A DNA stretch of 64,000 bases from Bolinopsis microptera (Eukaryota; Ctenophora; Tentaculata; Lobata; Bolinopsidae). The notes beneath the pieces are model-generated. The model did no database searches. It was not told the origin of the DNA and worked only from the letters and a program-made list of their open reading frames with translations. Numbering within the stretch: the first letter of the stretch is position 1; each line of letters begins with the position of its first letter. Of this stretch, positions 28,101 to 64,000 are shown one piece after another. Location: positions 9,290,635 to 9,354,634 of the forward strand of contig NC_087079.1 of the NCBI RefSeq assembly GCF_026151205.1, given 5' to 3'. Both the position numbers and the translations under genes were made by a program.

Positions 28101-30393
28101 GTAAGTTGACCTTCTTTGTCTGGGTGAATATCTTATCCCTATCGAATTGTCCACTGCAAGAGTCCCACCTAATCGATCTTCTTAGTGGGCAAGTTGCATT
28201 CATGCAACGTCCCAAACAGCTTGCAAAAACGTAATACTCTCCAAAAAAGTATCTGCAATCTTTCTTTGCGTCTGGTAAAATTATCTCAGTAGTTTTGTTC
28301 CGCCCAAAGATGTCTGTGTCAGGGAAAAGGAAACTTACTCTTGAACAATATTGGTTGGTAAGATTTGATATTTCAATAAGTCCTGCTAGGCAATGTTGCA
28401 TTCGTATTTTCATCTTGCTATCTCTTGTAGCTTTTGCAAAAGGTATAGTTTGAATTCTCGACACACTGCATATCTCAATTTCATTACCGCAAGATTCTTT
28501 CCTATCACATAGGTTGGAAAAGCTAACAAACCTTAGGTCCGAGTTGTAACATATGAATACCTCGTCACATTCAGTTTCATCGTGACTAACAAGGCGAATG
28601 TTGACCCCTTTCCACAAGTTGGCCAATGCACCTTTTCATCTTCACCATTCGTGCAGTCGACCAGTCCGTCATGCACCCATGCAAAAGGAAAGACAATGTC
28701 ATCCATAACCTGGGAAATATACCTTCTCGTACATTTCTTTGTGGTCATAATTTGGCATAGGTCTAGACGTTCGTCACTACTATCACCGCAATCTGGGTGA
28801 CCATCACACAAAAGGTGTTTGTGTATAAAACAAGAGCCACTGCTTTCAACGCACGCCTTATCGATCCCATCGTCACATATTTGTGGTATGGAGTTGATGG
28901 GAATGGTTTGGACGTGTAATGATTTCAGGCAGATGATCTGCTTGGCAACTGGTGTTGTATCCACGAACTTGGCATTCTATACCCACTCTAGATGGGTCCG
29001 AGCAGTTGGTTTGGTCGCTGTAATCGTCACAAAATAGTATTATTTCGTCTGGGTAATTCCAACTCATTCTGCTGCGAAGTCTTGCGGCACATCGGGTATA
29101 ATTATGAAGCGGTACTATAACCCCTATTCTTAAATTGAGGCACGTTGTTGTCATTTCATTGATCACACAATCCTTTTCATCGCTCCCATCATTACAGTCT
29201 TTTACCCCGTCACACACATAGTTTGCAGTAAAATACCAAGTTTGGTTCATCAGATTGTTGTCCAAAAACTCTCCACACTGAACACCGTACTCAAAACCAT
29301 TACAAAACTGTTCGTCCGTGCAATCACCATATGGGGAGCAAATAAGATCACACAGTTCAGAGTCTTTTTGATATTCACAGAAAGCTTCATCAAGGTTTGT
29401 GTTAAGGCAGTCATTCTTCCCATCGCAGGAACGAACCCCAAAAATTCCGTCAGAGTGGATATCAGCCGTATGAGTAATATGTGTAAATGTATTCCACTGT
29501 GACATTTGTTTCAGGCAAAGATATCCACATGGGTATTCACCTGGTTTGAGAAAATTAGGTAAATAGAATTATATCGAATCAAAGTTACTAAAGAGAACAC
29601 TGACCGACTCGTCTTAGGTATAATATACATAATTATACTACTAATTATTAATCATATATATTATATAGTTATTAAATATATATAGACACGGCACAAAAAT
29701 GTATTTATTTCAAATAGATCTTGCGGAGCAGTATCTAACTGATAGACAGCACTGAGTGTTCGTCTATGACAAATTCATGTAGCCGAAACGTCGACAACAC
29801 ATATTTTGTTTTACAGGTAGTACTATAGTAGAGATCGACCCACACTCAAGAGAGCAAAAACGAATCATATTTTTTCAAACACACACAAATAAGTATACAC
29901 CCAATTCCGGAAATTTGTTAACCCGGCTCATCCCGCTAATTCTCACTCAACAATCCGGTCCGTATCTAGAAACTTTATAATTATCTCCGGGAATTATATC
30001 CCCGAAAAGTCGTGAACACTGAGCACTGATAATTTCCCGCTAGGGTTCCGAGAATATCATCAACAGCCAAAGTATTATTGTATTAAAAACCGTCAATGTG
30101 TACCACAACTGCATCAATCATATCCGACACTCTCTAAGTTGGGCAGCTACTGTTAGTTCAAATTGTAATAATGAACTACATATATTGATATATTATGTTA
30201 ACTAATTTAATTTGATGATAAAATCATTACCTGCCATCGAACTAGTTGCAAAACTAGAAAATGGGCTTATTGGACGAATCACTGATTCTATTCCACAGGC
30301 TTGGTAGTGATGTAAGTCATTTTTGCATAGTTCATCAACTGAAGCGTAGGAAATCCTGAAAATATAACACAGGCAGCTAGCTATAACAACATT

Positions 30394-34955: not shown

Positions 34956-37900
34956 TTAGATTTTGTTTTCTTTGAATTTAGTAAATCGTTTAGTTGCTTG
35001 TATGAAGCCGATGATCCTTGGTAGTGAGAATTTGTCCACTATGTCTGTCACGCTAAGATAAAATGAGTCAAAGTATCCTCCTCGTTGGTAAGACAATTTC
35101 GGGCAATCGGGCACTGGCCAATAAAGTGGTTCATTGTCTCCTCCTCCATGAGACAGTGTGGACAAATTTTAGGGACCGTTGTCGGCTTATTAATGTGGTA
35201 GTTTAGTTCACAATGTCCAGTAGTGAATTGTGTTGCTGTTCTTGTGCTCTCTTTGCCAAGTTTCGGGATTGATCTGGCGAACTTATGTCTCCATACTCGT
35301 TTGAAGTGAGTGTTGACTGTTGGGCAACGTTCTCCATCTTTCCCTCATTTTCCGATGACTTATACTCCGCAGCGCTCCCTTCCATAATACCTTTGGTATT
35401 GGTAGTTGCACATGAGCGGAGTCCAAGTTATCGGAGCCTTTTTTGGCAAGAGAGTCTGCCTTTTCGTTACCATCATAGCCTTTATGAGCTGGAATCCATC
35501 GTAGTATGACTTGATTGTCCGTTGCTAGTTGGTTCAGCTCACTTATTGCCATGCTGGTGCTTTTTGATTTGACTTTGATATTGCTCTTTGCCATTATTGT
35601 CGCCTGGCTATCGCAGTTTATGATGATTTTTCTACTTTTGGTTCCAGATTCCTGTAGTATTTTTGCCGCTGTGCCTACGGCAAATGTCTCGGCCTGAAAG
35701 ACGGTTGAGTTGGTTCCTAGGTGGTAGGACTCCTCGCGTGGAGGGGTGTCGTTATCGACAATGTACACTCCTGCTCCAACTTGTTCATTCATTTTGGAGC
35801 CTCTGTGTAGCATTGTATGGTGTTGGCGTCATTCTCAATTTCCTCGTACTCGGAGAGTCGTGGAATTTCTGTGGTAAAACCAATGTCAACATTCAGTGAT
35901 GCAGTCTGTTGGTCTCGTCCTTCAGAATCGAGTTTGATGGTCTTTAGTAACTGTTCGTTGAGTTTTGTATGGGTGATTAGATTGCCCTTCTTATTAACCA
36001 TCGGCTCATATATCCAGTGGTTGTTGGATTTGAGTCTAAGAGCTCCTTTCGCTGCTTCCTCTTCTATCACCAGGTCGATGGGAACGATTCCTGTGATGAT
36101 GTCTAGAGCTGCTCCAGGAGTTGATGGTAACCCTCCTGTTATGAGAATATTCCCTAGCCGCTGAACGCTGCTTAGGATTGTTAGGTTATGTTTTTTGGAT
36201 ACACCATTGAGCCAGATTGTCGCAGCGTATGTCAGGGAAGGTCTGACTACAGCCGTATAAATCCATTTCATGGTCTTGGGGGTGAACCCCCATGTTGGTC
36301 CTATGGCTCTCCTGCATTGCATGAGTATGCCTTTGGCTTTTTTACATTGATTTTTGATGTGTTCATTCCACGTGAGTTTGCTATCGAGTGTTACTCCTAG
36401 AAACTTAGTTGAGTTACGCATACTTATTTCGGTTCCGTTCACTGTTAGAGGTTCAGAGAATTCCCATTTCCTCCTCCAGGTGAACATTACTGTATGTGTT
36501 TTAAGAGTACTTAGCTTCAGCCCGTTGTCGGTGCACCAGTTCATGATGGCTCCAAGACTTTTCTGCGTCATCTCTCTGAGATGATCGGCATCGAAGCCCT
36601 GGTTTCTGCATTTTGCCGGTCCCTCTAACGTAGCTAGTAAAGCAAAATCGTCCGCGAACCCTTGCAGTTCACATGGTATCCTGTATCTGGTGTACGACAG
36701 GAGACTGTCCACTACCAGGTTCCATAAGAATGGAGACAGGATCCCACCTTGCGAACACCCTTTTCTTATAACAATGGATTTCCTGCATCCGTTTAATTCC
36801 ACGTTCGTGGTTCTATTGCGGAGTAGGGACATAATGCATTTGTTGACTGAAGACGACTCACATTTCCGGTTCAGGGCCTTCTCTATAGATTTGAATGCTA
36901 CATTGTCGAAGGCCCCTTCGACATCTAAGAAGGTTCCTAGAGCCATACCGGAGCTTATGATTGTCCGTTCTATTTTGTGTACTATTTTGTGTAAGGCTGT
37001 TTCAATGGAGGCACCTTTTACAAAACCGTATTGTTTTTTATTAAGTTTTGAGTATATCTTAAGGTCTTCCTCCATATGCCATAGCACTATACGTTCGATC
37101 CACTTGAGTGGTACTGGAGCCAGAGTGATGGTTCTTTACTCTGTAGGATTTAGGGTTGTAATAGTCAGTTTTCCCTGGTTTTGGTAGGAAAATGCCTGTC
37201 GAGTTACGCCAGCTATCAGGAACGTATCCACTTTGGAAGCTTGTCTTTGCTAGTTTTGTGAAGGCATCGCTTATGAGTGGTAGTCCCTTCTGTAGCATTA
37301 TAAGGCGCAGACCGTCAGGGCCACTGGCTTTTAGGCCGTCAAATTCTAGTACTGACTTCTCAACTCTACCTTTGGAAAAGATAGTGTTGGATGTCCAGTT
37401 GTTGGTTAAATTTGGTGGAATTTATTCTGCCATGTTTTGGTCCTGTTGAATACTTGGTGTCGTGGCGAAATGGGCGTCCACCATGACTGCCAGGGTTTCA
37501 GCTGGGGATTCGGTGAGGACACCCTCAGGCTTCCTCACTGTCCCCAATCGGGCATTTTTGTTGTTTTTTATTATCGCAGATATTCTCTTTGAACATGACT
37601 TTGCTTCCATGTTCTTACAGAATTCCTTGAATTTAGATGTTTTAGTACGTCCAACCAGTCTGTTGTACTCCGCTTGATGTGAGCGTAGTTCAGACCAGTC
37701 TTTGTCGGACTTGGTCGACCGAGCTTGTCTAAGGCGAAACCGGATACCGGCGTTCGCCTCTCTAACTTCCGCGGTTTCCCACGGAGGAGCACGAATCTTG
37801 TTAGACACATACCTCTCCGTACATGCGGAGTTATACTTATAGGCTCGGTTGACGTTATCAGCCAATACTTTGACTGTTGTGTCAATTTCGTTCTCAGTCA

Positions 37901-38848
37901 ATATGTTATCGAAAGTGCCTATTGATCTGTCCATTTCATCAGCTAGGACTTCCTGAAATTTCTTCCCGTCCGTCTTAGCAATGTCTCGGAATATAGTTTT
38001 ACCCAGTCCGGTGTTGGATGTGATCTTATAGGTGATGAAGTGGTGGTCTGAAGAGTTTTCATCTTCGTCCCTGACCTCCACTTGCCATCGGTTAACGAGG
38101 TTATGTCCTTTTTTGTTTGTAATTGTTAGGTCAATGGCATTCTTCCACCGTCCGTTGTCAAATGTGGGTGAATTACCGTTATTTTCGATAAATAAGTTCT
38201 CGCTCGCTATATAGGCTAGCAGAGAGTCCCCTCGGTCTGACCCGACCTTATCGAAAGTTGTACTGTGCCAGCAAGTGTTTTGTGCATTTGCGTCAGTGCC
38301 TGCAATGAAGGCCATGTTGTTACGATGTGCATACTCCACAGCATTCCTGAACGCGAGAGGTGTACATTCTGGGTCAAGCCTGTCCATGTAACACGACAGT
38401 AGAACAACATTAGTATTATCAATTTTAGTTTGGATGGTTGTGCAGTCCCCAGTTGTAAGTGAATCCATGAAACATAGCTTATTTTGTAAGCATTTGTGGT
38501 AATAGATACACGCACGTGGCCGCTTTAAGTGGTCACTGTTTGCGAAGACTTTAAGTTCAGATGCCGGGGATAGGATTATGTTTTCCCATTCACATACGGT
38601 TCTTGTACGAGTGCTAGTGGGTTACCAAATTTTTTAGCAAATATTACCAAATCGTCGGTTGCCCTCTTAGCTTTGTTTGTGTTAATTTGTATGAAGTTTA
38701 AATGGTTCTTACCTTTAGTTCTAGCCAGTCTGGTTGGCTGTCCCAGGGAGAGAGTGTTAGTTGATGAATTTGATAAAGTTAATGGGGTTGTGTTCGAAGA
38801 TGGGGTTCTTGAGCTCTGGCCATTCAGGATGGCCAGGGAATCAGTCAC
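34956..38848 (-). pseudogene. LINE ORF2: endonuclease, reverse transcriptase, RNase H
   Basis: The endonuclease starts LNFIQINTNKAKRATDDL (38,730) and continues with GTDANAQNTCWHS and SSDHHF catalytic blocks (38,468-37,422). A TAA at about 37,420 precedes the RT: SGPDGLR, PKPGKTDYYNPKSYR, then a frameshift near 37,132, FLDVEGAFDN, QGGILSPFLWN and the FADD active site. A one-base loss near 35,799 removes the first RNase H Asp (CYTE where CYTDGS is expected). RNase H continues with NCDSQATI and RWIPAHKGYDGNEKADSLA (35,813-35,283). Two more shifts follow before a CPHC-ET-HF-CP zinc motif (about 35,180) and the end at 34,956. Confidence 0.8.
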
Positions 38849-46546: not shown

Positions 46547-46601
46547 ATGTTGGTATTGTGTGTGGTCGGACTAGTTATATTAGCTACAACAACCAACGCT
46601 G
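46547..46601 (+). CDS. Signal-peptide exon of the multidomain gene
   Basis: MLVLCVVGLVILATTTNA followed by G/GTAAGA. Hydrophobic core and small residues before the likely cleavage site are typical of secretion signals. Phase 1. Confidence 0.85.
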
Positions 46602-49600
46602 GTAAGAGCTTTAGTTTTATTTCGTTACAAGTCTAGCAGTTGGAATCGGATTTACTTTTATAATCTATTTTATTGATAAAACTGAAGTTGAAAAGATTTA
46701 TCGCAATACTACAATTTTAATGAGTTTATGAACCACGCCCAAACTCTTTAATATTTCAGGGGGTGAAGAGACTACGCCCAAACTCTTTAATATTTCAGGG
46801 GATGAAGAGACTACGCCCAAAATCTTTAATATTTCAGGGGATGAAGAGACTACGCCGTTTACTGCTGTTTCCTTCACCCATGCGAGTACTTACGCTTACA
46901 CCATCCCCGGCGAGGTTGTCAAAGAGGGTCAAAAAAGCGGCTCTGGTATGTTTCAAATATTAAATTCTGAATTGAGCTATAAACTTATAAAATATGATTT
47001 TGAGCTGCTAATTAGAGTTGCTGGTCATACATCAGGATCCTGATGAAACTGTCGCGGCACTGTTGTGGCACTGTCGTGGCACTCTCGTGGCACTCTCGTG
47101 GCACTCTCGTGGAACTCTCGTGGCACTCTCATGGCACTCTCGTGGCACTCTCGTGGCACTCTCGTGGCACTCTCGTGGCACTCTTGGCACTCTCGTGGAA
47201 CTCTCGTGGCACTCTCGTGACACTCTCGTGGCACTCTCGTGGCACTCTCGTGGCACTCTCGTGGCACTCTCGTGGCACTCTCGTGGCACTCTCGTGGCAC
47301 TCTCGTGGCACTCTCGTGGCACTCTCGTGGCACTCTCGTGGCACTCTCGTGGCACTCTCGTGGCACTCTCGTGGCACTCTCGTGGCACTATGTAATAAAA
47401 ATATTACCAATTATTTACTAGTCTTGTCAGAGCCTTGTGATTTACAATACTGATCTGGTGACGTGTCACACGGTATCAGCTTATGGGCGTTGCGATAACA
47501 TTCCAGCAGGATACACATGTTTAATTCCTGTTTAAACTCACGTAGGTATCACAATAACAAGTCCCACGTATTCAGGACCCGGATGTATGACCGAGTTGGC
47601 GAGGTGCCATTTAATTATAATGAATATCAAATAGAATATTTTCTTAAATGTCTTCTTACATAAGCTTTTTTTATTTAGGTAATGAAAAAGACAAAACGAC
47701 CGTTGAAGAAGGATTAGATGGAAAAGGTACTGAGTACATTCCAAATTGCTAAAATGAATGTATTTTAACGTTTATTTGACCATTTTTGGTCGGACAAGGA
47801 ATTTATTGAGTGCCCATATTGCAGCCTAGAAATAAAATTACTTGTAACCATAGTAACCACCTAACAGTAACAAAACAGTTACAATTACTATCTTGCTATG
47901 AATATATAAAATCAATTCATACCCATTGTGTCGACTTGATCATCGAAATTTACATATTATGTATTATAAAAATAATACATATGTATTTATAAATTTAAAA
48001 TGTAGTTGTTTTTTTAGAAATATCTAACGATTGAAAATCAAACCTGCAGTGAATGGTAGATATACTAGATGGAAACTGGGTGAATGTTCGGCTACATGTG
48101 GAGGAGGCAAGCAAACCGGAACAAGGACGTGCACCAATCCTGCTCCTTCTAATGGTGGTGCAGATTGTGCTGGTCCTGCCACAAAAACTAAAAGATGTAA
48201 CAAACACAGCTGCGATACAGGTTAGACCATTTGATAATATTATTTGGATCACTATAGCACCCTTTAAGCAGTTTCTCATGTTGTTTCGGCTATAATATCA
48301 TACAAATTATCGTCGCATATGGCGCAGCATCTTACTCTACCGGTCCTTATTATTCATATTCCTGAATATTATCATTTCTAATTGAAACAATTTCGTATCA
48401 CAAGTTTGCGTTTCACCACCCACCAGTGCCTCACCCACCGCCTCACCCACCAGTGCCTCACCCAACAGTGCCTCACCCACCACCGCCTCACCCACCACCG
48501 CCTCACCCACCCTTGCCTCACCCACCACCAACTTACCCACCAGTGCCTTACCCACCACCGACTTACCCACCAGTGCCTCACCTACCAGTGCCTCACCTAC
48601 CAGTGCCTCACCTACCAGTGCCTTACCTACCAGTGCCTCACCCACAACCGCCTCACCCACCACTGCCTCACCCACCACCGCCTCACCCACCACCGCCTCA
48701 CCCACCAGTGCCTCACCCACTACCAACTTACCCACCAGTGCCTTACCCACCACCGACTTACCCACCAGTGCCTCACCCACCAGTGCCTCACCCAGGAAGT
48801 GCCTCACCTACCAGTGCCTCACCCACCACCGACTTCCCCACCAGTGCCTCACCTACCAGTGCCTCGCCCACCGCCTCACCCACCAGTGCCTCACCATCTA
48901 TATTTAGAAACTATTGTAAAACATCTCCCCTCAGTATTCTGTGACCAAGCAAAGGAAAAGTGTGACGAAGACGTGAAGGGTTGTGGTAAGCCATACACAA
49001 AGTTAATCAAGACATGTAGATCTGAGAGATTTGACCATAAAACCTGTAGTGACGAGTGCAAGACGGCGGTTCAAAGTTCCATGATGCTCTACCCTGCACT
49101 GGAGGAGTAAGTGTAATTATGATAAAGACACGATTACTATTTTTGTAGACAGACTAAATTAGTCCATACAGAAATATGATTATTTTTATTGATATGATCG
49201 AAAGCTAAACGAATGAGATTATTTATATATATTTTCATCTTTGACTTAAAAATTCGTTACAGAATTACCTCCCCGAAAACTGATGTTATTGAAAGTTACA
49301 ATTGAATTATTGAAAGTTATACTGCATCATTGAATATTATGAATTATTTTGACACGATATTCGTATAAAATTAATGTGGATGATAGCTAACAACATTTAT
49401 TTTAGATACTTCAAATGTAAATGTCAACCTAAAGCCAAGAAATGTAAAAAGGAGAAATGCAAATTCTTGTCAGCTTGTTTAGGAGGTATGTGACTATAAA
49501 TACCTCTGGGATATTGCCAAGGGAGGGATAGAAAATAAGGGGGGGGGGGGGGGGGGGGGGGGCGTTATTTTAACCCATCCCACTGTTTACCCGATTAATA

Positions 49601-52600
49601 AATAATCCCTTTACAGTTTTAGTTAAGATATAATCCCACCTCATATTCTCTCAACCTAGTTTTGCTCCGTGATCGGAGTCAGTTTCCAACCGTAATTAAT
49701 CAAAAACAATTATCACTATATTAAATTGGGCATACTTTGCACCAAAAATGCTGAAAGCGCTCATTTTTGGACTTTAAACAAATATAGTTGAGTTGAGAGT
49801 AGTTTAGGAAATATAGCATTAGCAGTTTATAGCATTCATTTTTAACGCAAAAATACATTGTGCAGTCTCTGCATCTTACCAAATTTCCGCTTAATTGATA
49901 AGAAAGTTAAATTTAAAGTTGTTTGGTACTAATCCCTGCAGTAAGAGTAATTAAGTAATTACTCCCTGAATACGTGTGTTATTGTTGTTGTGTCCATATA
50001 TTGTGCTCATGTTACTATCATGTTCTTATATCATCAGGAGAATGTGACGAGAAGATAAAAGAGAAGAAACCCAAGGGCAATAAAAAGAAAGATGAAGATG
50101 GAGGTAAAGATTTAATGACGGGATTTTATTAAAATCCAATAATGTTTTGGTTTTGAGTCGAACTTAATTTAATTTTGATTCAAGGGAAGGGAATGGCCGG
50201 GTTCATCAATTGGTCTAATTATATATACATTAAGGCTGATAGTTACTGTACATATACAGCACATACAGGATTTTAATATAAATACTAAAATCCAATACTT
50301 TTAACCGATATAACAGTACATAAAAACTACAAAGGTTACCCAGCAATACTTACTTTTACTTTTGAAGTTAGGCCCTGGCCAGTAAGGTTTTCTGGTTATG
50401 ATTTCTGATCTCTGTATGCGCTGCTACTGGACAAAGGATTATGTTGGGACTTTGCATTTCCATTGCGCACGACCGACTGACAAATTTCAATAAGAAAACT
50501 GAAAGATAAAAATGGATTTTCACTGTTTCAACTCACTTGATTGCGTAAGAACCATGATTTACTAATTTAGCTTTTAAGCAATTATTGGTTCAGATGACGA
50601 ACAAGATGAAAGTGAAAGTTCGAGCACATCGTTTGGAAAAGGAGTGGGACGAGGTAAAGGAAGGTACAAGAAGGTAAACAAAAAGAAGGAACCGACTGAG
50701 CCACCGACAGAACCAGAGGGACCAGACGGTATGTATTTTGAAAGATAGGATTTAACAGACAAATAATTAAATTTTTTTATTTTTGTCATGTAAAGAATAG
50801 TGCGTTAACTATTGTTAGACATTCAAATCAAAAATATTCTCGTTCGATTAAATATTTCTACAATATCCAATTATGAATAAAATTGAACAAAACTGGAATA
50901 TAATATAGCAATTAAAATATCTAGAGCTATAAAAAGAGTCAAAAATTACACATATCGCATTGCATTTGTAATTTCAACTGAGGTTACAAGTTTCGTCAGT
51001 TTTTGTACTTCTATGACATTCTACAGCTATTTGCTCGGAAGCAACCTTTCTGACGGCTGCCGGATGTCAACCATGTGGAAAAAACAGTTACCTTTCAAAT
51101 GGGGGGTGTGTAAGTTGTCCTGAAGGAATGATATCAGAAGTTGGTTCTACATCAGAAAATGACTGTGTTTTTGGTAAGAATTTTACCAGATTTGACTCCT
51201 ACTGTATTGTAATAGTTCAAATCAGTATCATTGATTGGGAACCAGCTTTGTTTACTGGTGAATGTTTACTCAAGAATTTATACATACAATAATATATACA
51301 ATAATTATATACCTAAATCCGCTAATAAGATTTCATTAATTATTGAATACAGGCGCTGCTTAGATAAATGCAATGCCTAGTAACCAACTCTTGCACTAAA
51401 AATAAGCTTTAAAACAGTCTGAAGACTATCCAGTCCTGTATAGAAAGTTAAAAGCCTAGTAGGCACCCGCTTAGCACTAACTAAAACTTCACTCACACTG
51501 AAAAACAAGCATTATCACACATGTACTGATAAATACACTCAATTGCGACTACAGCTGAATATCTGTCCCTCCTTAATGTAAAACTTTTTGTCCGGCTCCG
51601 CTAAAGCTTTAGCTCTCATGCTGGCAATCAGCTCCTTTCGGGCTTCCCGCTGCTCCAGTGATCTGTCAGGGCTCAAAAACACAGTCTTAAACTTGGCTGA
51701 TTGTCGCAATTTCCGAGCGTTTGCTAAGACTTGATGTACGATCAAGGAGCTGGTCAGGCAGACTTTCACTGGGCGAGTACAGGTAGAAGTTTTCTTCTTG
51801 CCGAGTCGCACTACTTCCACCTTCGGTTTCTGCCCTATTTCCTCTAAAACCTCGCCGATTCTTACCTCTAACTCTTCCTGCTCCTCCTCCGGCAAACCGA
51901 AAACAAGAAGATTTCGACTACGGTCCTCTTCTGCGACTACGGTCTTCACAACATTTTTTAGGGCTTCTGGGCAGATAACTGGGGCAGTTACCGTCTGTGA
52001 ATTGCTTACAATTGCGCTGTAAGTCTTAATCTCCTCTTTAACTGAATCAGCGACTGAGGTTTCCACGATTTTCTTCATAGATTCCAGTTTCTCGGACTTA
52101 CACTGAGAGAGCTCCTGCTGAACGCTGATGAGAGTTTCCTGGTTCTGAATCAACTTTGCCTGAAGAGTTGTGCAGCAATTTCGGTACGACTCCACAGTTT
52201 CCATTAAATAGCCAATGTACTCATAAGACCGACTACAAATGCCAACAAGTTCTGGCTTATTCACTGATTTCGCAAACTTCGGATCTGCTATGTCCGTCAT
52301 CTTTCCGTACGGTTTGCCAAAGTTCCGCAACTGCTCTTTGCTCCAAGAATAAATCTCATCCCACCTGTAGTTAATACTTTCCAAGTCCATCTTTTCCATG
52401 ATTACAGTTAAAGTTACACAATACAAGACGAGCGACAGGCTGAGCGGTGTCGTGATAACAGTAGAGATAAGCCCTGCGATAAGAGAGCAACAAATCAGCA
52501 GCAAATGTGAATGTGCTATTACTGAACTCTGAATGTGCTATTACTGAACTGACAGCTTTGACAGCATTGTCATTGGAATTAATTTGACGAATTCACAACA

Positions 52601-55600
52601 GAAATATTACGAAGTCCTAAAATAATTCTTCGCACAAGTGAATAGTTTTACAGTACTGTTTTTTTAAAGCTCCCTGCTCGGCTGGAAGCTACATGACGGA
52701 TAGTGGATGTCAGCAATGTGGAGATAACTCTTTCAGTGCTGCTGGAGCTTATTCATGTTCTGAGTGTCCGGACGACATGGTATCAGCTGCCGGTTCTACA
52801 TCAGAGGGTGATTGCGTTTATGGTAAGAAAAATGCTATATCTTAACTTTATCATTGACATACTGTGATGCAATGTAAACAACTAAACTCCGATTCCTTGC
52901 ATTCGATTTAGGCAGTGCAATCGTTGTTACCTTTTTAGATTATCATTTAAGCAGTTGTTGGTTCTTTTGAGACTGCTAATGATATTTGTTACAGCTCCCT
53001 GCTCGGCTGGAAGCTTCATGACGGAAAGTGGATGTCAGCAATGTGGAGATAACTCTTTCAGTGCTGCTGGAGCTTCTTCATGTTCTGAGTGTCCGGAAGA
53101 CATGGTCTCAGCTGCTGGTTCTACATCAGAGGATGATTGCGTTTATGGTAAGAAAAATGCTATATCTTAATTTTATCATTGACATACTGTGATGCAATGT
53201 AAACAACTAAACAACGATTCATTGAATTCGATTTCGGCAGTGCAATCGTTGTTACCTTTTTAGATTATCATTTAAGCAGTGGTTGGTTCTCTTGACAAGA
53301 GACTGCTAATGATATTTGTTACAGCTCCCTGCTCGGCTGGAAGCTACATGACGGAAAGTGGATGTCAGCAATGTGGAGATAACTCTTTCAGTGCTGCTGG
53401 AGCTTCTTCATGTTCTGAGTGTCCGGAAGACATGGTCTCAGCTGCTGGTTCTACATCAGAGGATGATTGCGTTTATGGTAAGAAAAATGCTATATCTTAA
53501 TTTTATCATTGACATACTGTGATGCAATGTAAACAACTAAACAAAAATTCCTTGAATTCGATTTAGGCAGTACAATCGTTGTTATCTTTTTGAATTATCA
53601 TTCAAGCAGTGGTTGGTTCTTTTGAGACTGCTAATGATATTTGTTACAGCTCCCTGCTCGGCTGGAAACTACATGACGGAAAGTGGATGTCAGCAATGTG
53701 GAGAGAACTCTTTCAGTGCTGCTGGAGCTTCTTTATGTTCTAAGTGTCCGGAAGACATGGTCTCAGCTGCTGGTTCTACATCAGAGGATGATTGCGTTCA
53801 TGGTAAGAAAAATGCTATATCTTAACTTTATCATTGACATACTGTGATGCAATGTAAACAACTAAACAAAAATTCCTTGAATTCGATTTAGGCAGTACGA
53901 TCGTTGTTATCTTTTTGAATTATCATTCAAGCAGTGGTTGGTTCTTTTGAGACTGCTAATGATATTTGTTACAGCTCCCTGCTCGGCTGGAAACTACATG
54001 ACGGAAAGTGGATGTCAGCAATGTGGAGATAACTCTTTCAGTGCTGCTGGAGCTTCTTCATGTTCTAAGTGTCCGGAAGACATGGTCTCAGCTGCTGGTT
54101 CTACATCAGAGGATGATTGCGTTTATGGTAAGAAAAATGCTATATCTTAACTTTATCATTGACATACTGTGATGCACTGATGCAATGTAAACAACTAAAT
54201 TCCGATTCTTTGAATTCGATTTAGGCAGTGCAATTGTTGTTACCTTTTTATATTATCATTTAAGCAGTTGTTGGTTCTTTTGAGACTGCTAATGATATTT
54301 GTTACAGCTCCCTGCTCGGCTGGAAGCTTCATGACGGAAAGTGGATGTCAGCAATGTGGAGATAACTCTTTCAGTGCTGCTGGAGCTTCTTCATGTTCTG
54401 AGTGTCCGGAAGACATGGTCTCAGCTGCTGGTTCTACATCAGAGGATGATTGCGTTTATGGTAAGAAAAATGCTATATCTTAATTTTATCATTGACATAC
54501 TGTGATGCAATGTAAACAACTAAACAACGATTCATTGAATTCGATTTAAGCACTGCAATTGTTGTTATCTTTTTGAATTATCATTTAAGCAGTGGTTGGT
54601 TCTTTTGAGACTGCTAATGATATTTGTTACAGCTCCCTGCTCGGCTGGAAGCTTCATGACGGAAAGTGGATGTCAGCAATGTGGAGATAACTCTTTCAGT
54701 GCTGCTGGAGCTTCTTCATGTTCTGAGTGTCCGGAAGACATGGTCTCAGCTGCCGGTTCTACTTCAGAGGATGATTGCGTTTATGGTAAGAAAGTACAAT
54801 ATTTTATTATTAACATACTGTGATGCGAAAGAAACAACTAAACTCCAATCCCTTAAATTCGATTTAGGTAGTGCACTTGTTGTTATCTTTTTAAATCATC
54901 ATTTAAGCAGTGGTTGGTTCTTTTGAGACTGCTAATGATATTTGTTACAGCTCCCTGCTCGGCTGGAAACTACATGACGGAAAGTGGATGTCAGCAATGT
55001 GGAGAGAACTCTTTCAGTGCTGCTGGAGCTTCTTTATGTTCTAAGTGTCCGGAAGACATGGTCTCAGCTGCTGGTTCTACATCAGAGGATGATTGCGTTC
55101 ATGGTAAGAAAAATGCTATATCTTAACTTTATCATTGACATACTGTGATGCAATGTAAACAACTAAACAAAAATTCCTTGAATTCGATTTAGGCAGTACG
55201 ATCGTTGTTATCTTTTTGAATTATCATTCAAGCAGTGGTTGGTTCTTTTGAGACTGCTAATGATATTTGTTACAGCTCCCTGCTCGGCTGGAAACTACAT
55301 GACGGAAAGTGGATGTCAGCAATGTGGAGATAACTCTTTCAGTGCTGCTGGAGCTTCTTCATGTTCTAAGTGTCCGGAAGACATGGTCTCAGCTGCTGGT
55401 TCTACATCAGAGGATGATTGCGTTTATGGTAAGAAAAATGCTATATCTTAATTTTATCATTGACATACTGTGATGCAAGGTAAACAACTAAAAAAAATTC
55501 CTTGAATTCGATTTAGGCAGTACGATCGTTGTTATCTTTTTGAATTATCATTCAAGCAGTGGTTGGTTCTTTTGAGACTGCTAATGATATTTGTTACAGC

Positions 55601-58600
55601 TCCCTGCTCGGCTGGAAACTACATGACGGAAAGTGGATGTCAGCAATGTGGAGAGAACTCTTTTAGTGCTACTGGAGTTTCTTCATGTTCTAAGTGTCCG
55701 GAAGACATGGTCTCAGCTGCTGGTTCTACATCAGAGGATGATTGCGTTTATGGTAAGAAAAATGCTATATCTTAACTTTATCATTGACATACTGTGATGC
55801 ACTGATGCAATGTAAACAACTAAATTCCGATTCTTTGAATTCGATTTAGGCAGTGCAATTGTTGTTACCTTTTTATATTATCATTTAAGCAGTTGTTGGT
55901 TCTTTTGAGACTGCTAATGATATTTGTTACAGCTCCCTGCTCGGCTGGAAGCTTCATGACGGAAAGTGGATGTCAGCAATGTGGAGATAACTCTTTCAGT
56001 GCTGCTGGAGCTTCTTCATGTTCTGAGTGTCCGGAAGACATGGTCTCAGCTGCTGGTTCTACATCAGAGGATGATTGCGTTTATGGTAAGAAAAATGCTA
56101 TATCTTAATTTTATCATTGACATACTGTGATGCAATGTAAACAACTAAACAACGATTCATTGAATTCGATTTAAGCACTGCAATTGTTGTTATCTTTTTG
56201 AATTATCATTTAAGCAGTGGTTGGTTCTTTTGAGACTGCTAATGATATTTGTTACAGCTCCCTGCTCGGCTGGAAGCTTCATGACGGAAAGTGGATGTCA
56301 GCAATGTGGAGATAACTCTTTCAGTGCTGCTGGAGCTTCTTCATGTTCTGAGTGTCCGGAAGACATGGTCTCAGCTGCCGGTTCTACTTCAGAGGATGAT
56401 TGCGTTTATGGTAAGAAAGTACAATATTTTATCATTAACATACTGTGATGCGAAAGAAACAACTAAACTCCAATCCCTTAAATTCGATTTAGGCAGTGCA
56501 CTTGTTGTTATCTTTTTAAATCATCATTTAAGCAGTGGTTGGTTCTTTTGAGACTGCTAATGATATTTGTTACAGCTCCCTGCTCGGCTGGAAGCTTCAT
56601 GACGGAAAGTGGATGTCAGCAATGTGGAGATAACTCTTTCAGTGCTGCTGGAGCTTCTTTATGTTCTGAGTGTCCGGAAGACATGGTCTCAGCTGCTGGT
56701 TCTACATCAGAGGATGATTGTGTTTATGGTAAGAAAAATGCTATATCTTAATTTTATCATTGACATACTGTGATGCAATGTAAACAACTAAACTCCGATT
56801 CCTTGAATTTGATTTAGGCAGTGCAATCGTTGTTACCTTTTTAGATTATCATTCAAGCAGTGGTTGGTTCTCTCGAACCAGCTAATGATATTTGTTACAG
56901 CTCCCTGCTCGGCTGGAAGCGTTATGACAGAAAGTGGATGTCAGCAATGTGGAGATAACTCTTTCAGTGCTGCTGGAGCTTCTTCATGTTCTGAGTGTTC
57001 GGAAGACATGGTCTCAGCTGCCGGTTCTACTTCAGAGGATGATTGCGTTTATGGTAAGAAAGTACAATATTTTATTATTAACATACTGTGATGCGAAAGA
57101 AACAACTAAACTCCAATTCCTTAGATTCGATTTAGGCAGTGCACTTGTTGTTATCTTTTTAAATCATCATTTAAGCAGTGGTTGGTTCTTTCGAAACAGC
57201 TAATGATATTTGTTACAGCTCCCTGCTCGGCTGGAAGCTTCATGACGGAAAGTGGATGTCAGCAATGTGAAGAGAACTCTTTCAGTGCTGCTGGAGTTTC
57301 TTTATGTTCTGAGTGTTCGGAAGACATGGTCTCAGCTGCCGGTTCTACTTCAGAGGATGATTGCGTTTATGGTAAGAAAAATGCTATATCTTAACTTTAT
57401 CATTGACATACTGTGATGCAATGTAAACAACTAAACTCCGATTCCTTGAATTTGATTTAGGCAGTGCAATCGTTGTTACCTTTTTAGATTATCATTTAAG
57501 CAGTGGTTGGTTCTCTCGAACCAGCTAATGATATTTGTTACAGCTCCCTGCTCGGCTGGAAGCTTCATGACGGAAAGTGGATGTCAGCAATGTGGAGATA
57601 ACTCTTTCAGTGCTGCTGGAGCTTCTTCATGTTCTGAGTGTCCGGAAGACATGGTCTCAGCTGCCGGTTCTACATCAGAGGATGATTGCGTTTATGGTAA
57701 GAAAAGTCCTATATTTTATTACAAACACACTGCGATGCAATGTAAACAACTCAACTCCGATTCCTTGAATTCCATTTAAGCAGCACAATTATTGGGGTTA
57801 TTTTTTTAGATTATCATTTAAGCAGTGGTTGATTCTTTCGAGATTGCTAATGATATTTGTTACAGCTCCCTGCTCGGCTGGAAGCTTCATGACGGAAAGT
57901 GGATGTCAGCAATGTGGAGATAACTCATTCAGTGCTGCTGGAGCTTCTTCATGTTCTAAGTGTCCGGAAGACATGGTCTCAGCTGCTGGTTCTACATCAG
58001 AGGATGATTGCGTTTATGGTAAGAAAAATGCTATATCTTAATTTTATCATTGACATACTGTGATTCAAGGTAAACAACTAAAAAAAATTCCTTGAATTCG
58101 ATTTAGGCAGTACGATCGTTGTTATCTTTTTGAATTATCATTCAAGCAGTGGTTGGTTCTTTTGAGACTGCTAATGATATTTGTTACAGCTCCCTGCTCG
58201 GCTGGAAACTACATGACGGAAAGTGGATGTCAGCAATGTGGAGAGAACTCTTTTAGTGCTACTGGAGTTTCTTCATGTTCTAAGTGTCCGGAAGACATGG
58301 TCTCAGCTGCTGGTTCTACATCAGAGGATGATTGCGTTTATGGTAAGAAAAATGCTATATCTTAACTTTATCATTGACATACTGTGATGCAATGTAAACA
58401 ACTAAACAAAAATTCCTTGAATTCGATTTAGGTAGTACGATCGTTGTTACCTTTTTAGATTATCATTTAAGCAGTTGTTGGTTCTTTTGAGACTGCTAAT
58501 GATATTGGTTACAGCTCCCTGCTCGGCTGGAAGCTTCATGACGGAAAGTGGATGTCAGCAATGTGGAGAGAACTCTTTCAGTGCTGCTGGAGCTTCTTCA

Positions 58601-61600
58601 TGTTCTGAGTGTCCGGAAGACATGGTCTCAGCTGCTGGTTCTTCATCAGAGGATGATTGCGTTTATGGTAAGAAAAATGCTATATCTAAACTTTATCATT
58701 GACATACTGTGATGCAATGTAAACAACTAAACAACAATTCCTTGAATTCGATTTAGGTAGTACGATCGTTGTTCTCTTTTTGAATTATCATTTAAGCAGT
58801 GGTTGGTTCTTTTGAGACTGCTAATGATATTTGTTACAGCTCCCTGCTCGGCTGGAAACTACATGACGGAAAGTGGATGTCAGCAATGTGGAGAGAACTC
58901 TTTCAGTGCTGCTGGAGCTTCTTCATGTTCTGAGTGTCCGGAAGACATGGTCTCAGCTGCTGGTTCTACATCAGAGGATGATTGCGTTTATGGTAAGAAA
59001 AATGCTATATCTAAACTTTATCATTTACATACTGTGATGCAATGTAAACAACTAAACAACAATTCCTTGAATTCGATTTAGGTAGTACGATCGTTGTTCT
59101 CTTTTTGAATTATCATTTAAGCAGTGGTTGGTTCTTTTGAGACTGCTAATGATATTTGTTACAGCTCCCTGCTCGGCTGGAAACTACATGACGGAAAGTG
59201 GATGTCAGCAATGTGGAGAGAACTCTTTCAGTGCTGCTGGAGCTTCTTCATGTTCTGAGTGTCCGGAAGACATGGTCTCAGCTGCCGGTTCTACATCAGA
59301 GGATGATTGCGTTTATGGTAAGAAAAGTCCTATATTTTATTACAAACACACTGCGATGCAATGTAAACAACTCAACTCCGATTCCTTGAATTCCATTTAA
59401 GCAGCACAATTATTGGGGTTATTTTTTTAGATTATCATTTAAGCAGTGGTTGATTCTTTCGAGATTGCTAATGATATTTGTTACAGCTCCCTGCTCGGCT
59501 GGAAGCTTCATGACGGAAAGTGGATGTCAGCAATGTGGAGATAACTCATTCAGTGCTGCTGGAGCTTCTTCATGTTCTAAGTGTCCGGAAGACATGGTCT
59601 CAGCTGCTGGTTCTACATCAGAGGATGATTGCGTTTATGGTAAGAAAAATGCTATATCTTAATTTTATCATTGACATACTGTGATTCAAGGTAAACAACT
59701 AAAAAAAATTCCTTGAATTCGATTTAGGCAGTACGATCGTTGTTATCTTTTTGAATTATCATTTAAGCAGTGGTTGGTTCTTTTGAGACTGCTAATGATA
59801 TTTGTTACAGCTCCCTGCTCGGCTGGAAACTACATGACGGAAAGTGGATGTCAGCAATGTGGAGAGAACTCTTTTAGTGCTACTGGAGTTTCTTCATGTT
59901 CTAAGTGTCCGGAAGACATGGTCTCAGCTGCTGGTTCTACATCAGAGGATGATTGCGTTTATGGTAAGAAAAATGCTATATCTTAACTTTATCATTGACA
60001 TACTGTGATGCACTGATGCAATGTAAACAACTAAATTCCGATTCTTTGAATTCGATTTAGGCAGTGCAATTGTTGTTACCTCTTTATATTATCATTTAAG
60101 CAGTTGTTGGTTCTTTTGAGACTGCTAATGATATTTGTTACAGCTCCCTGCTCGGCTGGAAGCTTCATGACGGAAAGTGGATGTCAGCAATGTGGAGATA
60201 ACTCTTTCAGTGCTGCTGGAGCTTCTTCATGTTCTGAGTGTCCGGAAGACATGGTCTCAGCTGCTGGTTCTACATCAGAGGATGATTGCGTTTATGGTAA
60301 GAAAAATGCTATATCTTAATTTTATCATTGACATACTGTGATGCAATGTAAACAACTAAACAACGATTCATTGAATTCGATTTCGGCAGTGCAATCGTTG
60401 TTACCTTTTTAGATTATCATTTAAGCAGTGGTTGGTTCTCTCGAACCAGCTAATGATATTTGTTACAGCTCCCTGCTCGGCTGGAAGCGTTATGACAGAA
60501 AGTGGATGTCAGCAATGTGGAGATAACTCTTTCAGTGCTGCTGGAGCTTCTTCATGTTCTGAGTGTTCGGAAGACATGGTCTCAGCTGCCGGTTCTACTT
60601 CAGAGGATGATTGCGTTTATGGTAAGAAAGTACAATATTTTATTATTAACATACTGTGATGCGAAAGAAACAACTAAACTACAATTCCTTAAATTCGATT
60701 TAGGCAGTGCACTTGTTGTTATCTTTTTAAATCATCATTTAAGCAGTGGTTGGTTCTTTCGAAACAGCTAATGACATTTGTTACAGCTCCCTGCTCGGCT
60801 GGAAGCTTCATGACGGAAAGTGGATGTCAGCAATGTGGAGATAACTCTTTCAGTGCTGCTGGAGCTTCTTCATGTTCTGAGTGTCCGGAAGACATGGTCT
60901 CAGCTGCCGGTTCTACTTCAGAGGATGATTGCGTTTATGGTAAGAAAGTACAATATTTTATTATTAACATACTGTGATGCGAAAGAAACAACTAAACTCC
61001 AATTCCTTAAATTCGATTTAGGCAGTGCACTTGTTGTTATGGTAAAAGAAATATATTCATTTTGCTAAGATTATGTTTGCGTTTCATTGCTCAACAGCTG
61101 TTCGAATGATCAAATTTAAGAAGCACTTGTTGTTATCTTTTTAAATCATCATTTAAGCAGTGGTTGGTTCTTTCGACACAGCTAATGATATTTGTTACAG
61201 CTCCCTGCTCGGCTGGAAGCTTCATGACGGAAAGTGGATGTCAGCAATGTGGAGATAACTCTTTCAGTGCTGCTGGAGCTTCTTTATGTTCTGAGTGTCC
61301 GGAAGACATGGTCTCAGCTGCTGGTTCTACATCAGAGGATGATTGCGTTTATGGTAAGAAAAATGCTATATCTAAACTTTATCATTGACATACTGTGATG
61401 CAATGTAAAAAACTAAACTCCGATTCCTTGAATTCGATTTAAGCAGAACAATTATTGTGTTTATCTTTTTAGATTATCATTTAATAAGTATAATAATAAT
61501 ATCATTTTATAAGTAGTATTTGGTTATTTTGCCACTGTTAATGGTATTCGTTATAGCTCCCTGCTCGGCTGGAAGCTACATGACGGAAAGTGGATGTCAG

Positions 61601-64000
61601 CAATGTGGAGATAACTCTTTCAGTGCTGCTGGAGCTTCTTCATGTTCTGATTGTCCTGAAGACATGGTCTCAGCTGCCGGTTCTACATCAGAGGATGATT
61701 GCTTTTATGGTAAGAAAAATGCTGTATTTTATTATAAACATACTGTGATGCAATGGAAACAAATAAACTCCGATTCCTTGAATTCGATTTAAGCTGTGCA
61801 ATTGTTGTTATATTTTTAGATTATCATTTAATTTTAGTAAGTATAATATCTTTTTATAAGTAGTATTTGGTTATTTTGCCACTGTTAATGGTATTCGTTA
61901 TAGCTCCCTGCTCGGCTGGAAGCTACATGACGGAAAGTGGATGTCAGCAATGTGGAGATAACTCTTTCAGTGCTGCTGGAGCTTCTTCATGTTCTGATTG
62001 TCCTGAAGACATGGTCTCAGCTGCCGGTTCTACATCAGAGGATGATTGCGTTTATGGTAAGAAAAGTCCTATATTTTATTATAAACACACTGCGATGCAA
62101 TGGAGACAACTCAACTCCGATTCCTTGAATTCCATTTAAGCAGCACAATTATTGGGGTTATCTTTTTAGATGATCATTTAAGCAGTGGTTGATTCTTTCG
62201 AGATTGCTAATGATATTTGTTACAGCTCCCTGCTCGGCTGGAAGCTTCATGACGGAAAGTGGATGTCAGCAATGTGGAGATAATACTTTCAGTGCTGCTG
62301 GAGCTTCTTCATGTTCTGATTGTCCTGAAAACATGGTCTCAGTTGCTGGTTCTACATCAGAAGATGATTGCGTTTATGGTAAGAAAAGTACTATATTTTA
62401 TTATAAACATACTGTAATGCAATGGAAACAACTAAACTCCGATTCCTTGAATTCCATATAAGCAGCACAATTATTGTGGTTATCTTTTTAGATTATCATT
62501 TAAGTATTGTTTGGTTCTTTTGCCACTGTTGACTGCTAACGGTATTTGTTACAGTCCCTTGCTCGGCTGGAAGCTACATGACGGAGAGTGGATGTCAGCA
62601 ATGTGGAGATAACTCTTTCAGTTTTGCTGGAGCGTTTTCATGTTCCAGTTGTCCTGAAAATATGGTTTCAGTTGCCGGCTCTATGTCGGAGGATGATTGT
62701 GTTTTTGGTAAAAACTAAAAATGAGAACTTATTGAACTGCTACTGATTATCTACTACTAAAAGATAATTTTTGTTACTACTTATAGCCATTTAGAGAAAG
62801 TCTTTATAACTAAGGCTAAAAGGCTTTAAGATTTCTCATGGAATAGTTTGGCTCGTTCTGAAATGACGTATTTCAGCACCATGCTTTGCTGGAAACTACA
62901 TGACGGATAGTGGATGTCAGCAATGTGGAAACAACACTTTCAGTGCTGCTGGAGCTTTTTCTTGTACAAGCTGTCCTGAAGACATGGCCTCAGCTGTTGG
63001 TTCTACATCAGAGGAGGATTGTGTTTTCGGTAAGAATGGGACGACCAAATTTTAACATTATAATGAGCTGCGATAAAAAACATTTCATATTAATTTTTTC
63101 TAAATAAACTATATTTCTACCATTGAAGTGTTTTCTGTTAATTATTGATTAGTTATTCCCGAAACGAAAAGAGATACGAATAGCTACTGGTGGATATTGA
63201 GACAACAGGCTGGAAAGGGGATCTCTTCACGATAGAAGTTGGGTGTGGTGGGTTTTCTCAGAACCTCGAATATTCAATTTCCTTAACAGCACCAGGGATA
63301 AGAAGAGGAGGGCACTGAATACCATTGCAGTAGTGTCCCTCAAAGGTTCTTACATTATTTGGCTTGGTCGCTACAACAAGACCTGGAGTGACAACTGGCA
63401 ACTGGCTAAAAGACCAGGCCCAGTTTAATCCTGATAAACAGCTGACCGTGGGGCCCATAAAACGTCGTTCAAAACTACATCTGGGGTCGTAAGTTCCAGA
63501 CATCAGAAGAAGTCAAACGGTGTGGATGATTCTGCGTCTGAAAAGACTAAAGAATTGAGGTAATAATAGTTGGTTTGGTCTCCATCTAATTTGATAATTT
63601 TCAGCTCCATGCTTGGCTGGAAGTTACATGACAGACAATGGATGTCAGCAATGTGGAGAGAACACTTTCAGTGCTGCTGGAGCTTCTTCATGTTCTGATT
63701 GTCCTATAAAAAACATGGTTTCAGCTGCTGGTTCTTCATCAGAGGATGATTGCGTTTTTGGTAAGAATTTTATCACATTATATTGCAGCTGAACACATCA
63801 TTGAAGCACATTTTTATCTATTTTCCGATTCCCCAAATCCATTTCATGATTCAAATCAGTGATATACATTATTCAAAGATAGTCACCATTTATTCATATT
63901 GGATTTTTCTCAGATCTCTGCTCGGCTGGAAGCTACATGACGGATAATGGATGTCAACAATGCGGAGAGAACACTTTCAGTGCTGCTGGAGCTTCTTTTT
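46547..64000 (+). CDS. Large secreted multidomain protein: signal peptide, TSP1, GDNF/GAS1-like domain, 35+ GCC2/GCC3 repeats (partial)
   Basis: Probable extracellular-matrix or secreted protein; not recognised as a named gene. Exons before the array, all with GT-AG and matching phases: 46547-46601, 46760-46945, 47679-47726, 48050-48220, 48935-49106, 49406-49485, 50038-50103, 50594-50728, 51027-51173. They give 353 residues. The order is an 18-residue signal peptide, acidic linker, TSP1 (about 98-153), cysteine domain resembling GDNF/GAS1 (about 154-237), Lys-rich linkers (238-304) and the first GCC2/GCC3 repeat. The 153-bp exon array follows. Nearly all junctions are phase 1, as in modular genes built by exon shuffling. 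A TTACAG acceptor lies just before GGCAACATG, so a 5' leader is spliced on (cis or trans). The 3' end is outside the window. Confidence 0.85.
46760..46945 (+). CDS. Linker exon with tandem triple splice acceptor
   Basis: 62 codons in phase 1. Two and a half copies of a 39-bp unit encode GDEETTPKIFNIS-type peptide. Each unit ends in TTTAATATTTCAG, so acceptors lie before 46,760, 46,799 and 46,838; all keep the frame. Donor TCTG/GTATGT. The sequence is acidic and Thr-rich with NIS glycosylation sequons. Confidence 0.8.
47052..47390. repeat. 11-bp minisatellite (CTCGTGGCACT)n
   Basis: About 30 near-perfect units in an intron. Because 11 is not a multiple of 3, all frames on both strands stay open and encode the same cyclic peptide; none is a gene. 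Confidence 0.95.
47679..47726 (+). CDS. Short linker exon
   Basis: 48 bp, acceptor TTATTTAG/GTAATG, donor AAAAG/GTACTG, phase 1-1, encodes NEKDKTTVEEGLDGK. Supported by phase and charge similarity to the neighbours only. Confidence 0.6.
48050..48220 (+). CDS. TSP1 domain exon
   Basis: 57 codons with a textbook thrombospondin type 1 repeat: WKLGECSATCGGGKQTGTRTC, then cysteines at DC, RC and SC (six in all). The branch-point-like CTAAC at 48,023 precedes the CCTGCAG acceptor; donor ACAG/GTTAGA. TSP1 modules bind matrix partners and glycosaminoglycans in other proteins. Confidence 0.9.
48411..48895. repeat. 15-bp minisatellite (CCTCACCCACCAGTG)n
   Basis: Over 30 imperfect units just before the cysteine-domain exon. 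Plus frames read Pro/His or Ser/Pro/Thr, minus frames VGEAL-type peptides. A frame in phase with the next exon runs through it, so an extended exon is possible but the CCCCTCAG acceptor at 48,934 is better. Confidence 0.9.
48935..49485 (+). CDS. GDNF-receptor/GAS1-like cysteine domain (two exons)
   Basis: Exons 48,935-49,106 and 49,406-49,485, joined in phase 2. The Cys pattern FCDQAKEKCDEDVKGC, TC, CSDEC, then FKCKCQP, KKC, KEKC and SAC follows the GDNF/GAS1 domain layout (C-x6-C-x5-C ... C-x3-C ... C-x-C ... C). In GFR-alpha and GAS1 this fold binds GDNF-family ligands or Hedgehog. The assignment is by spacing only. Confidence 0.6.
49539..49562. repeat. Poly-G tract (24 G)
   Basis: Uninterrupted G-run in an intron; its length is unlikely to be accurate in any assembly. 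Confidence 0.95.
50038..50728 (+). CDS. Two Lys/Glu-rich linker exons
   Basis: 50,038-50,103 (ECDEKIKEKKPKGNKKKDED) and 50,594-50,728 (Ser/Glu-rich, then GKGVGRGKGRYKKVNKKKEP and EPPTEPEGP), both phase 1-1. They include basic clusters that could bind heparin-like polymers or be cleaved. The last cysteine of the preceding domain may be in the first exon. Confidence 0.7.
51027..51173 (+). CDS. Divergent first GCC2/GCC3 exon
   Basis: 147 bp, phase 1-1: ICSEATFLTAAGCQPCG, then SCPEGMISEVGSTSENDC. It keeps the six cysteines of the array repeats but is about half identical to them, so it has escaped homogenisation. Separated from the array by a 1.5-kb intron holding a LINE ORF1-like frame. Confidence 0.85.
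51539..52399 (-). CDS. LINE ORF1-like protein, antisense in an intron
   Basis: An open frame runs from 52,504; the start at 52,399 (MEKMDLESINYRWDEIYSW) looks better because the upstream codons are merely hydrophobic. It has a coiled-coil-like centre (LQAKLIQNQETLISVQQELS) and an RRM-like part (RNLLVFGLPEEEQEELEVRI; RPVKVCLTSS; VFLSPDRSLEQREARKELI). This is the layout of ORF1 proteins of CR1/L2-type LINEs. No RT or endonuclease adjoins it, and it has no stop in about 287 codons. The 5' side has two copies of AATGTGCTATTACTGAACT at 52,509-52,550. Confidence 0.7.
   Translation of the reverse strand: MEKMDLESINYRWDEIYSWSKEQLRNFGKPYGKMTDIADPKFAKSVNKPELVGICSRSYEYIGYLMETVESYRNCCTTLQAKLIQNQETLISVQQELSQCKSEKLESMKKIVETSVADSVKEEIKTYSAIVSNSQTVTAPVICPEALKNVVKTVVAEEDRSRNLLVFGLPEEEQEELEVRIGEVLEEIGQKPKVEVVRLGKKKTSTCTRPVKVCLTSSLIVHQVLANARKLRQSAKFKTVFLSPDRSLEQREARKELIASMRAKALAEPDKKFYIKEGQIFSCSRN
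62555..62707 (+). CDS. GCC2/GCC3 exon 31, diverging
   Basis: VPCSAGSYMTESGC at the start, FSFAGAFSCSSCPENMVSVAG in the middle and CVFG at the end. It marks where the uniform array gives way to diverged repeats. Confidence 0.9.
62877..63029 (+). CDS. GCC2/GCC3 exon 32, diverged
   Basis: Starts PCFAGNYMTDSGCQQCGNN, then SCTSCPEDMASAVG and EEDCVFG. Acceptor GTATTTCAG. Six cysteines kept. Confidence 0.9.
63030..63604. other. Long intron with a decayed mobile-element fragment
   Basis: 575 bp instead of about 170. 63,190-63,440 reads DIETTGWKGDLFTIEVGCGG in one frame, reminiscent of a VEVGCRGF block often found downstream of animal LINE RTs. Weak evidence. Confidence 0.3.
63605..63760 (+). CDS. 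GCC2/GCC3 exon 33, one codon longer
   Basis: PCLAGSYMTDNGCQQCGEN, SCSDCPIKNMVSAAG, EDDCVFG. CPIKNM replaces CPEDM, adding one residue in frame. Confidence 0.9.
63914..64000 (+). CDS. GCC2/GCC3 exon 34, cut by the window end
   Basis: Acceptor TTTTTCTCAG, then DLCSAGSYMTDNGCQQCGEN and onward; the array continues beyond the window. Confidence 0.88.

Follow-up and report, generated by a model that had tools for sequence, protein, structure and literature searches.

The question raised by this locus is whether the domain-bearing exons at the 3' end of a 64,000-nucleotide stretch of the Bolinopsis microptera genome belong to a single gene and, if they do, what kind of protein that gene would encode. 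The stretch (contig NC_087079.1, positions 9290635-9354634 of the forward strand; C8 in our contig numbering) is referred to here as the window. One ionotropic glutamate receptor encoded in this genome (L042) matches best, among PDB sequences, the iGluR ML032222a (E 8.2e-32), which bears a Mnemiopsis leidyi gene name of the kind used in PMC6278862, and next 4zdm, a Pleurobrachia receptor; a second receptor (L040) ranks vertebrate delta receptors first, which is no argument for a ctenophore. An earlier note on this DNA had proposed a secreted rod of more than 2,000 residues in which a thrombospondin type 1 (TSP1) domain and a GDNF/GAS1-like domain precede a long array of GCC2/GCC3 (ephrin-receptor-like) repeats. 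Our prediction is one gene of 44 exons on the + strand, extending from 46547 to 905 bases beyond the window and encoding 2,229 residues with a single stop at the end. The order of its parts is signal peptide, TSP1, a GAS1-type domain in two exons, linkers, 35 GCC repeats and a C-terminal domain of 167 residues. The combination and the length that were proposed are thus recovered in one gene model, on one strand, with phase-compatible junctions and one signal-peptide first exon.

The internal exons are flanked by AG and GT, and all junctions are in phase 1 except for one in phase 2 inside the GAS1-type domain. Exon 1 (46547-46601) holds the start codon and a predicted signal peptide (18 residues plus one base), and between 46400 and 51026 no other first exon that has a phase-1 donor resembles a signal peptide. 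The number of such exons expected by chance is 0.21 per 4.6 kb, as judged from 11 in 240 kb on both strands of 12 other loci. Exon 2 (46838-46945) encodes a short linker. Its acceptor is uncertain because the 39-base unit that bears it is tandemly repeated at 46735-46856; any of three may be used, as the upstream copies offer in-frame acceptors. Exon 3 (47679-47726), a short charged linker with a GTACTG donor, was placed tentatively by its splice sites and phase alone, and an error here may leave the domain order unaffected.

Exon 4 (48050-48220) encodes a TSP1 domain with six cysteines and a net charge of +6, which matches PF00090 with an expectation value (E) of 3.5e-10 and, at 40.4 bits, clears the cut-off of 21.6. 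We note that the introns on either side of this exon contain minisatellites (47048-47389 and 48417-48895, with periods of 11 and 15), both of which are open in several frames. The GAS1-type domain follows, its first part in exon 5 (48935-49106, six cysteines) and its second in exon 6 (49406-49485, five cysteines), giving 85 residues and 11 cysteines together. When this domain alone was compared with the Protein Data Bank (PDB) using phmmer, GAS1 (7rhq_G) ranked first with E 0.039, and a PACSIN-2 chain (E 5.7) was the only further match. A search of the genome (264,652,675 bases in 232 contigs) with the same domain led to a relative at C9:5889462, where two such domains stand in tandem and an intron interrupts both of them at the equivalent point. 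All 11 cysteines are invariant across the three ctenophore domains. A C9 domain used as the query also picked up C6:10557172, though weakly (E 0.44) and with an internal stop.

The profile built from the three domains found GAS1 as its sole match among 177,635 PDB sequences (E 6.6e-6; best single stretch 1.5e-4). In the alignment, 10 of the 11 cysteines present here pair with all 10 GAS1 cysteines in the aligned stretch, and 21 of 81 columns are identical. Two column-shuffled control profiles returned nothing from the PDB at E <= 10; after realignment one of them (A5) had lost its third cysteine column and kept 10 of 11, and the other (A6) kept all eleven. Domains of the GDNF/GAS1 class are described in an excerpt of PMC4349606 as having ten conserved disulfide-forming cysteines each. 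A Pfam GDNF search of the genome gave no match, but its controls were silent everywhere and absence is not demonstrable in this way. On the sequence comparisons, exons 5 and 6 are best described as encoding a divergent GAS1-type domain, rather than a GAS1 or GFR-alpha receptor, and the resemblance that the earlier note had suspected is borne out to this extent. The domain is followed by a linker in exon 7 (50038-50103; rich in lysine and acidic residues, with one cysteine) and exon 8 (50594-50728; serine and acidic residues, then lysine-rich). This linker is charge-mixed, with 17 lysines and arginines and 18 aspartates and glutamates.

The array begins with a divergent repeat (51027-51173) that scores just below the PF07699 cut-off (22.3 bits against 23.1) and matches the local profile with E 7.7e-25. 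Repeats 2-35, all on the + strand, occupy single exons from 52670 to the window end at 64000, in phase 1 on both sides, and the last of them (63914-64066) crosses the window end by 66 bases. The repeat exons are 147, 153 or 156 bases long, and all 35 are open, flanked by AG and GT, entered in phase 1 and provided with six cysteines. A two-repeat query exceeds the Pfam cut-offs of both PF07699 (28.2 bits against 23.1) and PF23091, the ELAPOR-type family (36.8 against 33.2). The long array is therefore as had been anticipated, but the number of repeats is 35 including the divergent first one, not more than 35. Furthermore, the array is strongly acidic (260 aspartates and glutamates against 13 lysines and arginines in 1,784 residues; net -247), which, together with the charge-mixed linker, does not agree with the basic linkers described earlier. 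Repeats at three other loci are likewise net acidic in 19 of 19 cases (-4 to -10).

Comparison within the array indicates that the repeats are under coding constraint. The mean pairwise divergence among repeats 3-26 is 0.034 (3.4%) for the 24 exons and 0.098 (9.8%) for the 24 introns, and the ratio of nonsynonymous to synonymous differences (pN/pS) is 0.515 for 33 repeats, a set that excludes repeats 1 and 34 because of their other lengths, and 0.561 for 29. When exon-plus-intron units other than repeat 1 were placed in a tree (no support values printed), the repeats from C13 stood apart, all seven copies from C8:18.13 Mb nested within the window set, and window repeats 31-35 formed the deepest branches of that set. 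This arrangement fits an array that expanded from within and left its older units at the 3' end; growth of the rod would have proceeded through unequal exchange of exon-intron units. A 332-residue open frame lies on the minus strand at 51539-52537, in the intron between repeats 1 and 2, and has no Pfam match at E <= 0.001.

The whole of the terminal exon is outside the window (+ strand, bases 403-905 beyond its end), so that the gene model closes neither with the array nor at the window edge but continues into a further domain, located in sequence that the earlier note did not cover, and its stop. By eye, an AATAAA was read downstream, at 1160-1165 on the same strand. The C-terminal domain has 167 residues, 11 cysteines and a net charge of +11. 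There was no convincing match in Pfam, no sequence match in the PDB and nothing relevant in an NCBIfam scan; no relative was found in phages, and none of 19 pattern matches in bacterial and archaeal genomes was confirmed. In this genome at least 44 matches were found, fragments included (counts for this family and for the GCC repeats are lower bounds), of which 21 lie in open frames of at least 366 residues. Ten loci were cut out; five of them (L029, L031, L034, L035 and L036) encode proteins of 403-431 residues in a single open reading frame, in each of which the C-terminal domain is preceded by a hydrophobic start, one further domain and a proline/threonine-rich linker. Ten other copies share 50-56% identity with the domain of the window gene. 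By its sequence, then, this domain links the gene to a family in the same genome. Broken copies also flank the gene, upstream at window positions 12640-13062 and 24658-25080 and, reversed on the minus strand, downstream at 2197-2521 and 3713-4044 bases past the window end (L001).

The predicted structure of the C-terminal domain is mostly beta, with a predicted local distance difference test (pLDDT) score of 68.9 and a predicted template-modelling (TM) score of 0.69. The best Foldseek matches are galectins, at E 1.2e-3 and a TM score of 0.42, with none at E <= 0.001. In VIA the model gave Z 8.6, a value of a middling kind that is common there, with a root-mean-square deviation (r.m.s.d.) of 3.7 over 118 residues, and among the 50 matches listed 49 are galectins or GRIFIN. 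The model points to a fold that is probably a beta-sandwich. Galectins themselves differ in that the domain has no Pfam or PDB sequence match to them and has 11 cysteines, and the matches listed show r.m.s.d. values of 3.2-3.9 and identities of 3-12%.

Domain order was read in eight regions, the window and seven other loci, and indicates that TSP1, GCC repeats and the C-terminal domain have been shuffled among genes of this genome. The C-terminal domain is preceded by 10 GCC repeats at C13:7.89 Mb, by two at C10:5.37 Mb and by six on C1, where the last repeat is partial and the match to the domain is in two pieces; at C10:9.33 Mb it is preceded by a TSP1 exon. Arrays with no C-terminal domain detected in the fetched stretch are found at C8:18.13 Mb (seven repeats) and C13:2.44 Mb. 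Upstream of the C1 array there is a DSL domain (E 3.9e-10), a candidate part of that gene, and the exons upstream of other arrays, candidate parts of theirs, differ and have no Pfam match above cut-off. Discoidin-like (FA58C) domains had been considered in the C9 and C1 neighbours and were dropped, Pfam giving no such match.

For 10 of the 44 C-terminal matches, a GCC cluster of the same strand lies no more than 10 kb upstream. Under two models of random placement (2,000 placements each) the mean numbers of such pairs are 0.018 and 0.055, with a maximum of 3 in each. For this comparison 26 clusters were grouped by hand from 147 genome matches, leaving out those weaker than E 1.3e-7. C-terminal matches that lie near one another do not count as independent, and the three pairs at C13:11.6 Mb, counted from their coordinates, may belong to separate genes (in two of them the open frames span 366 and 438 residues).

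In our view, the best reading of these data is a bridge of the matrix or mucus that arose through lineage-specific exon shuffling. That one ctenophore gene encodes a secreted modular protein which spans mucus, adhesive or jelly as a long bridge outside the cell is a proposition for which we consider the case to be evenly balanced. Because the prediction combines a signal peptide with cysteine-rich extracellular modules and has no hydrophobic tail (none of the glycosylphosphatidylinositol (GPI) type was seen at the C-terminus when read from the translation), the protein would be secreted, in keeping with the earlier proposal. Its N-terminal head would be compact, formed by TSP1 and a helical ten-cysteine domain of GAS1 type, and would be joined by the flexible, charge-mixed linker to a rigid acidic rod of 35 disulfide-rich repeats. 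The basic TSP1 and C-terminal ends may bind glycans or other matrix partners, and the polyanionic rod would space both ends while retaining water and cations. The GAS1-type domain may then serve as a protein-protein contact and need not be a growth-factor receptor. An excerpt of PMC6278862 names TSP1 as one of four domains in common among the toxin, colloblast and tentacle gene sets of Mnemiopsis leidyi, an overlap that would be compatible with a matrix bridge but is unspecific.

Several observations weigh against this interpretation. The gene structure is a prediction from genomic DNA, and exons 2 and 3 have no supporting domain. A signal-peptide-like open reading frame occupies bases 167-281 beyond the window, directly before the terminal exon, and a separate start there is conceivable. 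The Pfam GDNF family (PF02351) is unreached by the window domain and is reached by only one of the three ctenophore domains, at E 0.41; EGF, in one member, attains E 0.029, a better value than GDNF has in any of the three. The comparison of folds with GAS1 and GFR-alpha covered the exon 5 part, which modelled alone gave three helices (pLDDT 65.6) and no useful match in Foldseek or VIA. The pN/pS values correspond to moderate constraint only, the confidence of the C-terminal model is itself only moderate, and its likeness to galectins is weak.

The alternative that survives best places the gene in a rapidly changing family of secreted proteins, acting in defence or self recognition, in which the N-terminal module and the number of repeats vary. 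The arrays are homogenised within each locus, the C-terminal family is large with about half of its matches in long open frames, the DSL domain and the Pfam-less exons would provide differing N-terminal modules, and the C-terminal model is galectin-like. However, the array has a pN/pS below 1 and the protein sequence of its repeats hardly varies, and we regard this explanation as unlikely, if more credible than those that follow.

A soluble ligand trap or co-receptor is somewhat less likely again. Here the GAS1-type domain would bind a secreted signal, for instance of the TGF-beta family, and the rod and C-terminal domain would anchor it in the matrix; TSP1 and the charged linker could bind glycosaminoglycans. 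GAS1 was the sole PDB match of the three-domain profile, and the corresponding vertebrate domains of GAS1 and GFR-alpha bind signalling proteins according to part of PMC4349606. Growth-factor binding by the ctenophore domain is possible. Against this, the part of PMC9695228 that deals with the subject reports the Hedgehog pathway as absent from Ctenophora, our genome searches with HH_signal and RET_CLD1 gave no match, although these are unable to show absence, and there is a single domain here in comparison with two in GAS1.

There is a slim chance, a little below that of a ligand trap, that the locus comprises two or three adjacent genes, with TSP1 and the GAS1-like domain upstream and the array, the C-terminal exon or both separate. 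The GAS1-like domains on C9 have no TSP1 exon detected in the 30 kb fetched, the intron between repeats 1 and 2 is 1.5 kb long and holds an inserted open reading frame, and the signal-peptide-like frame precedes the terminal exon. Yet every junction is phase-compatible, the reading frame runs uninterrupted to its one stop, no signal-peptide first exon occurs between exon 1 and the array and, elsewhere, both TSP1 and GCC arrays adjoin the same C-terminal domain. That the array is inflated by assembly or is non-functional is very improbable: some repeats are identical as protein, which makes the array hard to assemble, but all 35 are open with splice sites, exons are more conserved than introns and further arrays occur at other loci.

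The remainder of the window contains segmental duplications that are arranged in tandem and measure about 12 kb, with 96-99% identity across the pieces listed (4144-6662, 7295-9829, 9820-15571, 17022-19853 and 27070-29586, with their counterparts), which include the upstream broken copies of the C-terminal domain. The duplicated segments carry a receptor-like gene on the minus strand, with a low-density lipoprotein (LDL)-receptor class A match at 4107-6635 and a seven-transmembrane piece at 651-1478. At 35283-38621 the same strand holds a retroelement whose open reading frames encode endonuclease, reverse transcriptase and RNase H.

Returning to the interpretation of the gene as a matrix or mucus bridge, its parts can be compared with known systems. 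The TSP1, GAS1-type and GCC modules are known; new are their order, the number of repeats and the C-terminal domain, and no description of a TSP1/GAS1-type/GCC-array architecture turned up in searches restricted to open-licence literature. With GAS1 and GFR-alpha the predicted protein shares a ten-cysteine domain. It differs in its eleventh cysteine, in the attached TSP1 domain and long repeat rod, in the missing GPI-type tail and in domain number, since the whole receptors have two or more such domains in tandem, as does the C9 locus with two, and the window gene has one. SCUBE, SVEP1 and ELAPOR carry GCC2/GCC3, ephrin-receptor-like or TNFR-like cysteine repeats, and SCUBE proteins share the same broad class of repeat with the comb-jelly rod. 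The likeness lies in the repeat type; here there are 35, of one near-identical kind poor in lysine and arginine. The SCUBE family has EGF repeats and a CUB domain, and neither EGF nor CUB gave a Pfam match in the pieces of the window protein that were scanned (drawn from exon 4 onwards); membership of the SCUBE family was considered and not adopted.

Ctenophores are reportedly placed as sister to other animals in some work. According to the relevant portion of PMC9695228, bilaterians and cnidarians have Gas1, and the Hedgehog pathway is reportedly missing from Ctenophora; because of this distribution, a GAS1-type domain here would predate its use with Hedgehog. We tentatively suggest, as a possibility that we would put at somewhat less than even, that the GAS1/GFR-alpha-type domain predates both Hedgehog and GDNF/RET signalling, and that in comb jellies it is an exon-shuffled adhesion or matrix module, borne on a polyanionic rod beside the broad repeat class also found in SCUBE proteins, which was later recruited as a signalling co-receptor in other animals. 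Should the gene model hold, a GAS1-type domain exists in a ctenophore despite the reported lack of the Hedgehog pathway in the phylum, and an order in which the domain came first and the signal later becomes testable. The locus also exposes a large domain family, with its 44 matches, for which Pfam has no convincing model and the PDB no convincing relative by sequence. Together these genes would represent a modular toolkit of secreted proteins, and the tissue in which they act, be it mucus, colloblast or mesoglea, may be addressed in Mnemiopsis.

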